Positions 2,595 through 8,120 of a stretch of 8,120 nt of DNA are shown here, piece after piece. The stretch is taken from positions 1 through 8,120 of the forward strand of contig JACRGO010000140.1 in the NCBI GenBank assembly GCA_016212295.1, in the 5' to 3' direction. Every line of letters begins with the position of its first letter. Positions within the stretch are counted from its first letter, which is position 1. Position numbers and translations under genes: made by a program. The notes under the pieces were generated by a model. That model did not search any database, had not been told where the DNA came from, and was given only the letters and a program-made list of their open reading frames with translations. The stretch is from Nitrospinota bacterium. GTDB lineage: Bacteria; Nitrospinota; Nitrospinia; JACRGO01.

Positions 2595-3229
2595 CTATCC
2601 GCCCCAAAACGCCTTTTCCACCTCTTCGTTCGCAAGGAGGTTTTCGCCTGTATCCTCCATTAATATCCGGCCAAGTTTAAAGACATATCCCCTGTGGGCT
2701 ATCTCAAGGGCCATACGGGCGTTCTGCTCGACCAGGAGGACGCTGGCGCCCGACCTGTTTATCTCAATCAGTTTTTCAAAGATAATGTCCACATACAAGG
2801 GAGAAAGTCCCAGGGAAGGCTCATCGGCAAGAAGGAGTTTCGGCTTTTGCATCAATGCCCTGCCTAAGGAAAGCAACTGCTGTTCACCGGTGGAAAGGAC
2901 GCCGCCTTTTGCCTTATTTTTTCTTTCAGGGACGGAAGGAGGCCGAGAATCCTTTCCATTTCAGACTTCGTATCTTTTTCTTTTCTGAAAAATGCGCCCA
3001 TTGCAAGGTTTTCGATAACCGTCATGGAAGGGAACAACCTCCTCCCCTCCGGCCTGAGTGAAATCCCCTCCGCTGCGCGCTGATCAGGCCGCAGGAATTT
3101 AATGCTCCTGCCCTCAAAAAAAATATCCCCTGACCCCATCTCAATAAGACCGAAAACCGCCTTGAGAGCGGTGGACTCGGGTTCCGGCGGAAAACCCATC
3201 AGGGTTGACCCCGAAAAACTTTTAAACAA
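2595..3229 (-). pseudogene. livF: Decayed LivF-type ABC transporter ATPase
   Basis: Two frames together give most of a LivF protein, the ATPase of branched-chain amino acid importers. The upstream frame (about 3229 to 2908) covers KAVFGLIEMGSGDIFFEG and EGRRLFPSMTVIENLAMGAF and ends LKEKIRQKA. The downstream frame (about 2907 to 2595) continues GVLSTGEQQLLSLGRALM, with an ABC signature, Walker B LLLADEPSLGLSP, the switch histidine region VLLVEQNARMALEIAHRGY and a normal C-terminus. Adding one base around 2901-2908 joins them perfectly. Two further lesions are present. The Walker A position reads GFPPEPEST instead of GPNGAGKST, so the catalytic lysine is gone, and the first 25 or so residues are missing. 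No other liv gene is nearby. I read this as a pseudogene with multiple independent lesions, which makes a sequencing error as the sole cause unlikely. Confidence 0.85.
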
Positions 3230-3345: not shown

Positions 3346-3722
3346 TTTAGCGTGCCCTCCCTTGTTTAATAATAGCGGTTTGATTGGCCTCTTTCGGGCG
3401 CTCCTATTTTGTAATTTAAATGCCGCTTTTGTCTGAATATCATAGCCCCCTGTAAAATAGCCATGTCTCGAATTGGCAATAGGCAGGGAAGATGAAATTT
3501 TTATAATTTTTTTACCCAATAAAAAAAAGATTATCTTGTTGATTTAAAAGACTTTTTCTTATTTATGCGTAGGCTCTGTATCTCAGGCAATTTTTTTTAC
3601 TCTGATAAAAATCGCTAAATTTAGGTCATAATATTTCAGGAACGAAATTCCAGAAATATTTGGAATTTTTACTTGCTATTCCTTATCCTGAATTTTTTTA
3701 TTTTGAGGAATAAAGGACTTCT
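3346..3722. other. AT-rich gene-poor gap upstream of the cytochrome gene
   Basis: This stretch has no convincing gene. It is clearly more AT-rich than its neighbours. It holds the first copy of the 17-bp dispersed repeat (3561-3577), an 8-bp perfect inverted repeat AAATTCCA / TGGAATTT at 3645-3652 and 3661-3668 followed by a short T run, and a second, imperfect TCCTTAT / ATAAAGGA pairing between about 3680 and 3718. The inverted repeats could be protein-binding sites or transcript hairpins ahead of the cytochrome promoter. Nothing else stands out. Confidence 0.5.
3561..3577 (-). repeat. 17-bp dispersed repeat, copy 1 (inverted)
   Basis: ATTTATGCGTAGGCTCT here is the exact reverse complement of AGAGCCTACGCATAAAT, which occurs at 6406-6422 and 7985-8001. 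Seventeen identical bases three times within 4.5 kb cannot be chance. This copy lies in the AT-rich gap between the livF relic and the cytochrome gene. Together with copy 2 it makes an inverted pair around 3561-6422, which encloses the cytochrome, epimerase-like and yajD genes. An insertion-sequence end or a small dispersed repeat are both possible readings. Confidence 0.85.
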
Positions 3723-6403: not shown

Positions 6404-6423
6404 ATAGAGCCTACGCATAAATT
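6404..6423 (+). repeat. 17-bp dispersed repeat, copy 2 (20 bp shared with copy 3)
   Basis: The 20 bases ATAGAGCCTACGCATAAATT are identical at 7983-8002, and the 17-base core is present inverted at 3561-3577. The copy lies just after the yajD stop codon. With copy 3 it forms a direct repeat pair that brackets the secreted-protein gene and the GHKL / STAS-like / PIN cassette (about 1.6 kb). The flanks of the copies differ, so the conserved unit is short. Confidence 0.85.
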
Positions 6424-6439
6424 CGGAAACCCTCTGTTT

Positions 6440-6858
6440 TTATTGAATTACATAATCAGTAAAATAAGAAATTGTTCCAGTCAGCTTATTGTTTTGTATT
6501 TTTATTATTGGATAATTGGAATCGGCAGGATCGCCAAAGCAGATCCAGCCCGCATTGGGGGCATAAGCATAACCGGAAAGTAGATATGTTTGAGTTTTGT
6601 CGTCATATTCTGCTTGTACTTGGTAATCATGTTGGTTTTTGCAAAACTGCGGATTAGTCTTTTGCGCGTCTTTTTTAGTAGCGGGATTAGGAGGGGTGGT
6701 TTTTCCGTTCACACAATAAAAATTGATCCAACCAATATTGGGACTGTGCGCATACCCATGCACATTATAATAGGTAGCCGCCTCCACCGCCTGCGGCCCA
6801 AGCGCCAGACCAAGGAACAGAACCAGGCTGTAAAGAAAATAGGAGATTATTTTTTCAT
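6440..6858 (-). pseudogene. Secreted GYAxxPNxGWI-repeat protein, signal peptide frameshifted at an A6 run
   Basis: The intact frame encodes two copies of a short motif, GYAHSPNIGWINF and GYAYAPNAGWICF, about 60 residues apart, then a C-terminal segment ending TDYVIQ. Comparable GYAWSxNIGWI repeats occur in exported proteins of many environmental bacteria and have no known function that I can name. Upstream in the same frame lies a good signal-peptide core, SYFLYSLVLFLGLALGPQAV followed by EA and then ATYY. The natural start ATG at 6858 (ATGAAAAAATAA) is off by one base: adding one A to the A6 run would give MKKIISYFLYSL and a complete exported protein of about 139 residues. As written the ATG frame stops at once. 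GTG at 6787 also opens the frame but would remove the signal peptide. This may be a real frameshift, a slippage-controlled gene or a homopolymer sequencing error. Confidence 0.7.
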
Positions 6859-6925
6859 GGATTTTTGTTTTTTATGAGGCAGGCAACCTTTAAGGGTTGA
6901 TAATCCAGCTTTATCCGTCCAATAA

Positions 6926-7395
6926 GTCGCCACATTGCACGGTTCAACCTTACAGGAAAGCGCGTTGGAATTTGCGAAGTATATCATTGTATTTACCAAT
7001 TTTCCTCTGGACAGTATTTTCATAGAAAGCAACGCCTTGATTTTTCCATCGCCGATTTAGGAATAGGCATACGAAACAATATCAAGCAAAGATTCGGACC
7101 AGCCCTTTCCGCCGGGCAGGCGATAAACTGGGCGGTGGCAGGGAAAAACACCACCAAAGCGGGGCGTATTCCCGGAGGGTTGGGGCTCAAACTGTTGCGG
7201 GAGTTTATAATTCAAAATGAGGGACGCATTCAGATTGTATCCGACAAGGGATACTGGGAACTTTCCGGGGGAAAAATCACAACCCAAAACTTCCAGGCCC
7301 CTTTTCCCGGCACGGTAGTCAATATCGAAATCAATACAGCCGACATCAAATCCTACCGCCTTGCCGCGGAGATCAGTCCTCGATATATTTTTTAA
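6926..7395 (+). pseudogene. GHKL (histidine kinase-like) ATPase of a STAS-like/PIN cassette, 5' end decayed
   Basis: In the main frame the sequence reads QYFHRKQRLDFSIADLGIGI, then GKNTTKAGRIPGGLGLKLL, QIVSDKGYWELSGGK and FPGTVVNIEINTADIKSYRL to the stop at 7395. DLGIGI (7054-7071) is the G1 box and GGLGLKLL (7174-7197) the G2 box of a Bergerat-fold ATP-binding domain. I recognise this as the ATP-binding protein that accompanies STAS-like DUF4325 proteins. The N-box is broken: LQESALEFA in one frame (to 6976) continues as VYHCIYQFSSGQYF in another (from 6979), as if one base were lost in the N-box Asn codon. A TAA at 6923-6925 and two further stops in the main frame (6898-6903) precede it, and the usual N-terminal part is absent. 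GTG at 7135 would give only an 86-residue fragment without G1. The next gene's Shine-Dalgarno sequence overlaps this stop codon. Confidence 0.75.
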
Positions 7396-7404
7396 GGAAC
7401 TTTT

Positions 7405-7767
7405 ATGAACGATCAATTAGTGATTATGCCATTTGAAATAGTGGGAAGCGGCATCTGCGTTTCCTCGGACAACGGGCAGAAGATCCATGACCAAATAACC
7501 AAAGCCTTGCGGGAAGGGAAAAAAGTAAATATCTCTTTCCTGAACATTGGAAGCGTTACTTCCGCTTTTCTCAATGCGGCCATCGGCCAGCTTTATGGCG
7601 AATTTGCCGAGGAAACCATCAAGGACTCTCTTTCCGTGTCCGGGATGGACCAAAACGATCTGGTCCTTTTGAAACGAGTGGTGGAAACGGCCAAGGAATA
7701 TTTTAAGGATCCAGAGCGCTTCAAAAAGACGGTGGAAGAAATCCTGGAGGGGGAAAATGCCGGCTGA
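7405..7767 (+). CDS. STAS-like domain protein (DUF4325)
   Basis: An intact 120-residue protein. The stretch REGKKVNISFLNIGSVTSAF followed by LNAAIGQLYGEF is the hallmark of STAS-like DUF4325 proteins, which share the fold of anti-sigma-factor antagonists. The helix after SVTSAFLNAA corresponds to the region that carries the phosphorylated residue in true STAS antagonists, and a Ser/Thr-Ser pair is present (VTSAF). A charged helical tail (AKEYFKDPERFKKTVEEILE) follows. Paired with a GHKL ATPase, it suggests partner switching, in which the ATPase binds or phosphorylates the STAS-like partner. That is inference from the families. AAGGA at 7394-7398 lies six bases before the ATG and overlaps the upstream stop, so the genes are one operon. 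Its 3' end overlaps the PIN gene by 11 bases. Confidence 0.88.
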   Translation: MNDQLVIMPFEIVGSGICVSSDNGQKIHDQITKALREGKKVNISFLNIGSVTSAFLNAAIGQLYGEFAEETIKDSLSVSGMDQNDLVLLKRVVETAKEYFKDPERFKKTVEEILEGENAG

Positions 7768-7999
7768 CATCCGCCCAATTGACTCTTTCGAATTCAGGGA
7801 TTCCGGCGAGTTTTTGGTGGACACCAATATATGGCTATATATCTTTGGTCCTCAAGCCCCGGATAATTGGGAAACAAGGATTTACTCAAAAGCGTACGCG
7901 GGCATCCTTTCCGCGAAAAGCCATGTTTATATTGACCCCTTGATCCTTTCCGAATTTATTAACCGGTATGCGCGGTTAATCTATAGAGCCTACGCATAA
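7757..7999 (+). pseudogene. PIN-domain protein (VapC-like), 3' truncated
   Basis: The 80 residues show the start of a PIN nuclease domain: FLVDTNIWLYIFG with the first acidic residue Asp22 and Asn24, then YIDPLILSEFINRYARL with Glu66 as the likely second acidic residue. A complete PIN domain runs on for some 60 to 80 more residues and needs two more acidic residues, which are missing. The last codons (TAT AGA GCC TAC GCA TAA) fall inside repeat copy 3, so the gene is cut exactly where the repeat begins. The start is well supported: GGAGG at 7746-7750 lies six bases upstream, and the start overlaps the STAS-like gene. The protein would have been a ribonuclease-type effector linked to the ATPase and STAS-like genes; here it is probably inactive. 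Confidence 0.8.
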
Positions 8000-8002
8000 A
8001 TT
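7983..8002 (+). repeat. 17-bp dispersed repeat, copy 3, at the PIN gene break point
   Basis: ATAGAGCCTACGCATAAATT is identical to 6404-6423, and its core is repeated inverted at 3561-3577. It supplies the last residues and the stop codon of the truncated PIN gene. To its right the sequence turns strongly AT-rich and a new ORF opens 62 bases on. That is the layout expected at the end of an insertion sequence, but no second end is in the window, so this remains a proposal. Confidence 0.8.
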
Positions 8003-8064
8003 AAAAAACAACAAATCAATTTTAAAAAACCCAACAAAATCAATGAGTTAGGATTTTAGGGTCT

Positions 8065-8120
8065 ATGGGTAAATTGAAAACCAGTAAATATAAACTTGTC
8101 AATTTTGAAGCAGTCCCATA
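8065..8120 (+). CDS. Start of an unidentified ORF, possibly a transposase (runs off the window)
   Basis: ATG at 8065 opens a frame reading MGKLKTSKYKLVNFEAVP to the window edge. AGGG ends four bases before the start and could be a weak ribosome binding site. Only 18 codons are visible and I cannot assign a family. Its place about 60 bases inside the repeat that cuts the PIN gene suggests a transposase. Confidence 0.35.
   Translation, partial: MGKLKTSKYKLVNFEAVP

Follow-up and report, generated by a model that had tools for sequence, protein, structure and literature searches.

A decayed operon of probable vapKSC type in a Nitrospinota contig, and the nesting of its relatives in restriction-modification operons

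Introduction

The right end of a contig from a Nitrospinota bacterium (GenBank assembly GCA_016212295.1, contig JACRGO010000140.1) carries three tightly packed genes. The window analysed here is this entire contig (C99), 8,120 nucleotides in length. An earlier note, made from the sequence alone, described the three as a tightly linked Bergerat-fold ATPase, STAS-like protein and PIN-domain protein, a description that was borne out, and put them forward as a candidate undescribed system. Does this trio represent a new system, how would it act, and is the copy in the window still able to do so? As shown below, a trio of this kind has in the meantime been described as the vapKSC operon, named by Chambers et al. 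(EMBO J, June 2026; PMC13373217; PDB 9Z7O). Together with the mechanism proposed below, a decayed vapKSC operon is the best explanation of the cassette and very probably the right one.

Content and state of the cassette in the window

Three forward-strand frames, which overlap or abut, make up the cassette: a GHKL ATPase gene and a PIN gene, both truncated, with an intact DUF4325/STAS-like gene between them. The features, with names that follow from the identification given in the next section, are these:

6997-7395, forward strand: vapK C-terminal remnant, GHKL kinase domain (71% identity to residues 158-288 of the VapK of locus L056)
7394-7398, forward strand: vapS Shine-Dalgarno sequence AAGGA, read from the sequence, overlapping the vapK TAA stop at 7393-7395
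7405-7767, forward strand: vapS, intact, DUF4325 STAS-like antitoxin of 120 aa (PF14213, E 1.9e-16)
7561-7563, forward strand: vapS Ser53, counterpart of the phosphoacceptor Ser48 of Escherichia VapS
7757-7984, forward strand: N-terminal 76 codons of vapC, PIN nuclease, interrupted at 7985 (PIN E 5.6e-4)
7820-7822, forward strand: vapC D22
7952-7954, forward strand: vapC E66
7985-8120, forward strand: end of a multicopy insertion sequence interrupting vapC; the contig ends inside the element

The PIN gene opens with an ATG at 7757 and so shares 11 bases with the DUF4325 gene (stop at 7767); this overlap and that of the Shine-Dalgarno sequence with the preceding stop had been read correctly in the earlier note. 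Its bounds for the cassette, 6926-7999, proved slightly too wide. Homology of the window ATPase to the intact reference relative (VapK of L056, 289 aa) starts at 6997 and not at 6926. On the right side the PIN part stops at 7984; 7985-8120 belongs to the terminus of an insertion sequence, so that the codons read between 7985 and 7999 do not belong to PIN.

Both outer genes are damaged, as the note had recognised. The vapK remnant keeps the DLGIGI (G1) and GGLGL (G2) boxes (HATPase_c, E 0.0035), and the N-terminal STAS domain and the N box (E..N...H) are deleted, along with the region of F54, the ssDNA-binding aromatic residue of Escherichia VapK. The missing N-terminal half was found nowhere in the same genome, which is 90.5% complete, and a search for the origin of the segment that replaces it (6406-7000) returned only short matches elsewhere in that genome. 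vapC is split by the insertion sequence. The genome has 49 occurrences of the first 17 bases of this element's terminus, many at contig ends, and the 136-base end is identical at many contig ends. The remaining half of vapC, carrying the DFND and HDRD motifs, is found at 127-441 of contig C19, where it immediately follows the opposite end of the element; each of the two junctions has TA. The end of the element is present in three copies in the window (3430-3577, 6406-6422 and 7985-8120); its abundant copies cause many of the contig breaks in this genome.

With the sensor half and N box of VapK gone and VapC cut by the insertion sequence, the system in the window is not a working one, and only VapS can still be made from it. 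As far as its sequence tells, this copy is a dead relic of the vapKSC family. The same genome contains a second relic (contig C20, 1111-1797), in which a 5'-truncated kinase gene precedes an intact DUF4325 gene and the PIN gene is absent; it sits behind a type I restriction specificity gene. Elsewhere in the window (2595-3229, reverse strand) a LivF-like ABC transporter ATPase gene is apparently broken by a frameshift into two overlapping frames.

Relationship to VapKSC and the proposed mechanism

A profile of the DUF4325 family compared with the PDB gave one strong match, to Escherichia VapS (9z7o_A, E 3.7e-25), and a profile of the PIN family likewise gave one, to Escherichia VapC (9z7o_C, E 8.1e-15). 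In these alignments D28 of Escherichia VapC corresponds to D22 in the window, and S48 of VapS to S53. In the published system a C-terminal region of VapS reaches the active site of VapC; a C-terminal stretch is present here and aligns to 9z7o_A, but beyond residue 100 the DUF4325 model is of low confidence, and a matching role for the stretch is putative. On the strength of these matches and aligned residues the trio is a known one, that is, vapKSC, and the suggestion of an undescribed system without a described role has to be abandoned. Within the family, Escherichia VapSC falls in a divergent branch, the VapC match scoring about 58 bits.

Structural models agree with these assignments. The DUF4325 model (pLDDT 87) has a STAS fold, with RsbV, RsbS and SpoIIAA among its best structural matches, at Z values near 7 that are modest by themselves. 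In the ATPase model (pLDDT 91) the kinase half is closest to SpoIIAB (Z 11.1; next fold outside the anti-sigma factors, 8.3), and the N-terminus of the ATPase shows a weak sequence resemblance to TM1442, RsbS and other STAS proteins.

In the published system VapK phosphorylates VapS and thereby frees the VapC nuclease (PMC13373217). Escherichia VapC is strongly toxic, and the substitution D28A abolishes both its toxicity and phage protection (PMC13373217). VapS is the antitoxin of VapC; the structure of the VapS-VapC complex has been solved (PMC13373217; PDB 9Z7O), and the phosphomimetic substitution S48E in VapS breaks the complex (PMC13373217). In E. coli the operon gives about 100-fold protection from one phage, and this protection needs VapC D28, VapS S48 and VapK F54 (PMC13373217). 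VapK was insoluble, and its activation by ssDNA is not directly evidenced in that paper (PMC13373217).

The relatives found here would behave like the Escherichia system. VapS, with its STAS fold, would bind and block VapC. VapK, a predicted fusion of an N-terminal STAS-like domain to a SpoIIAB-like GHKL kinase, would be switched on by ssDNA arising from DNA damage or phage infection and would then phosphorylate the conserved Ser/Thr of VapS; VapC, once freed, would cut RNA and stop growth. That a kinase/antagonist-like pair controls the PIN nuclease, in a toxin-antitoxin or phage-defence role, had been anticipated in the earlier note and matches VapKSC (PMC13373217). Its further idea that ATPase and STAS protein jointly hold the nuclease in check stands for the STAS protein, which restrains VapC alone; the ATPase is instead the releasing trigger (PMC13373217). 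Because three loci (L112, L114 and L215) keep VapS and VapC with only a C-terminal scrap of the kinase, it also fits that the STAS protein and not the kinase is the restrainer.

Conservation and distribution of relatives

Searches seeded with an alignment of four DUF4325 sequences retrieved 80 genome loci and 6 viral loci; a scan of the viral contigs with a single protein gave no match there. With the addition of a Deinococcus gobiensis plasmid and a phage record, the set comprises 88 related loci, which span many bacterial phyla, two archaea, phages and one plasmid. A search of complete E. coli genomes with the DNA of locus L184 gave no match, the query probably being too divergent. The nearest relatives of the window copy in the tree are loci of Desulfuromonadales and Geobacteraceae. 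With profiles built from the relatives, the kinase-STAS-PIN order was recovered in 83 of the 88 loci, and contig ends truncate three of the five loci that deviate. The arrangement of the cassette in the window is thus far beyond chance.

The residues on which the proposed mechanism depends are conserved. In the family alignment E144, N148 and H152 of the VapK N box are each present in 100% of the sequences. Position 53 of VapS is Ser or Thr in all 90 sequences (Ser in 79, Thr in 11; S53 in the window), and the D/E/D/D set of the PIN domain is invariant, so that the catalytic acidic residues, a general lack of which would have counted against the proposal of the earlier note, are retained in homologues. 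Column 42 of the VapK alignment, which is not equated with Escherichia F54, is Trp or Phe in 79/80 relatives.

Several loci deserve separate mention. Streptococcus phage Javan172 (L141, 2989-4781) carries a complete kinase-DUF4325-PIN trio beside an integrase gene, the PIN gene being unannotated in the record. In another locus (L132, 6448-8004) VapK is 518 aa long, has a long extra N-terminal part and lies inside an HmaA-HmaB operon. Neither PADLOC nor NCBIfam has a name for the trio, apart from a weak match of VapK kinase domains to the N-terminal part (142-275) of the PADLOC DrmA profile PDLC02567 (E about 2e-7); some proteins labelled DrmA may therefore carry a GHKL domain of the VapK type.

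Linkage between DUF4325 and PIN genes

Linkage was assessed from both sides. In Pseudomonadota the DUF4325 family is present in 29/398 genomes, and a PIN gene was found at only 3 of the 30 places outside the centre genome of the search; at the remaining places there are kinase-STAS pairs, fusions, or operons whose third gene is another one. That all DUF4325 genes are linked to PIN genes is hence rejected. Starting from the PIN family, which is present in 14/395 Nitrospirota genomes, VapS was found directly upstream in 13 of the 14, and in 9/10 of the genomes not already known. The sole PIN gene without VapS is 5'-truncated, so the PIN-side search of Nitrospirota genomes found no intact PIN gene lacking VapS. 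Because 3/30 places from the DUF4325 side stand against 9/10 from the PIN side, we take PIN linkage to mark one clade of DUF4325, that of VapS; on this distribution it is a property of the clade and nearly obligatory within it. The earlier note had made its proposal depend on most DUF4325 genes with this ATPase having a linked PIN gene, which fails for the family at large but holds from the PIN side.

Matches to DUF4325 in the phylum of the window were not accepted as vapKSC, being orphan VapS-like genes without kinase or PIN. Nearly every genome of two families in this phylum has one such gene (L024-L052), and in 17 loci it adjoins genes for a TPR protein and a TrmL-like tRNA methyltransferase; possibly it is a domesticated core gene. 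Five other loci (L176, L178, L179, L187 and L190) encode single proteins of ~335-370 aa with a helix-turn-helix-like start and a DUF4325 end, and the middle part of that in L176 weakly matches the SpoIIAB model.

Nesting in restriction-modification operons

The cassette is flanked by mod and res, inside a type III system, in 11 loci, one such locus being that of Nitrosomonas nitrosa (L079); in 6 loci it is flanked by HmaA and HmaB. A 4-base ATGA forms the overlap of the VapK start with the stop codon of the preceding mod or HmaA gene in 17 loci. Among 110 immediate neighbours there were 13 type III methylases (PADLOC) as well as 11 N6_N4_Mtase and 8 ResIII matches (Pfam), and none of these was among the families listed for 110 control genes from distant regions in 20 of the same genomes. 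As to the defence islands that the earlier note proposed to check, many free-standing copies (52/86 loci) have no gene of the five defence types searched within 8 kb; the count of 34/86 loci rests on profiles built from the neighbours themselves and is not unbiased, whereas the comparison of family scans with control genes is. In the published survey 36% of 289 vapKSC instances lie within 10 kb of another immune gene (PMC13373217). The main text of that paper contains no mention of 'type III' or 'Hma'; relative to that main text, the nested loci and the module without PIN described below are additions. Because the context changes 10 times for the type III setting and three times for the Hma setting on the tree, the cassette has probably moved into or out of such operons several times.

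The nesting suggests that these copies may act as a second-line suicide defence behind restriction. CapK/CapS has been proposed to connect restriction, and the DNA damage it causes, with suicide defences that act later (PMC13373217), and by analogy the same reasoning would apply to nested vapKSC. Combining these points, nested VapKSC could be a fail-safe wired to restriction, which senses ssDNA from phage attack or from restriction-cut DNA and kills the cell if restriction fails, while the GHKL-DUF4325 pair would be a general switch with exchangeable outputs, including the uncharacterised small, mostly one-helix proteins that replace PIN on plasmids and prophages. We advance this joint reading tentatively, as having close to an even chance of being correct.

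It has to be weighed against mere hitchhiking, by which an independent toxin-antitoxin cassette would accumulate in defence islands without any functional link to restriction. The cassette does stand alone as well, and occurs in prophages and on a plasmid, and its repeated changes of context are what a passenger would be expected to display. Against this stand the precision of its insertion into the mod-res and HmaA-HmaB pairs, down to the shared ATGA, the prominence of type III methylase and Res families among immediate neighbours and not among control genes, and the fact that most Hma-linked copies form a single clade across several phyla. We therefore regard hitchhiking as a plausible but somewhat doubtful account of the nesting. 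Another rival would be to regard the trio as a partner-switching regulator in which PIN is a non-toxic RNA-processing enzyme and no suicide toxin; the kinase and STAS folds are indeed those of sigma-factor regulators, and the loci without a defence gene nearby would be in keeping with it. The toxicity of Escherichia VapC, lost together with phage protection in D28A (PMC13373217), the failure to find an intact PIN gene without VapS in the Nitrospirota genomes searched, and the frequent occurrence of the cassette inside restriction-modification operons and in prophages make this very improbable. A PIN toxin restrained by VapS and released by VapK is the reading retained below.

A related module with a different third protein

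Several Pseudomonadota loci, Marinobacter phage AS1 (L218, 1392-3318) and plasmids of Vibrio, Acinetobacter and Leptospira contain a kinase and a DUF4325 gene followed by a third gene whose product, usually of 140-175 aa, is not a PIN protein (L177, L180, L183, L192, L195, L197, L199, L219, L221 and L222). The genes have start/stop overlaps, and such modules occur on plasmids and also next to a phage repressor gene. Most of the third proteins carry a single hydrophobic segment, as a rule close to the N-terminus; in that of L193 no helix is convincing. A few pairs show clear homology (E 1e-6 to 1e-10), and the others resemble one another only weakly. The same layout, with a 293 aa protein, DUF4325 and a membrane protein, is present in a Francisella prophage (PMC7924643). 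A description of the third protein was not found in the literature searched. The same switch may here have a second class of output.

Comparison with other systems

VapKSC and the cassettes studied here share the kinase-STAS-PIN order, homologous VapS and VapC proteins, the phosphoacceptor Ser/Thr, PIN D28 and a STAS-GHKL kinase. The differences are that the window copy is broken in two of the three genes and that relatives are also found inside mod-res or HmaA-HmaB pairs, in archaea and in prophages. CapK/CapS resembles the trio in combining a STAS-GHKL kinase with a STAS substrate, in its DNA-damage signal and in often lying next to restriction-modification systems (PMC13373217), but CapS has a winged helix-turn-helix and represses transcription, whereas the trio lacks such a domain and has a PIN nuclease as partner. 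With SpoIIAB/SpoIIAA and RsbW/RsbV the trio has in common the kinase fold, the N box and a STAS fold with a phosphorylatable Ser/Thr; its output is a nuclease in place of a sigma factor, the third gene of the relatives being PIN and not a linked sigma factor gene, and VapK has the extra N-terminal STAS-like domain. VapBC likewise has a PIN nuclease toxin, but in VapKSC the antitoxin is a kinase-controlled STAS protein and not the DNA-binding VapB. PrrC/RloC is similar as an RNase module inside a restriction-modification operon with a likely last-resort role, PrrC being known from type I operons (PMC3710099); it differs in consisting of a HEPN anticodon nuclease and an ABC-type ATPase, as opposed to PIN and GHKL/STAS.

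Concluding remarks

What appeared to be an undescribed system is settled as a relic of one published in 2026. VapKSC is widely spread, occurring in many bacterial phyla, archaea, prophages and a plasmid. The small membrane-type third protein of the related module points to an output of the GHKL-DUF4325 switch that is uncharacterised in the literature searched, and the nested position of the cassette gives a direct test of mechanical coupling between restriction and suicide defence.
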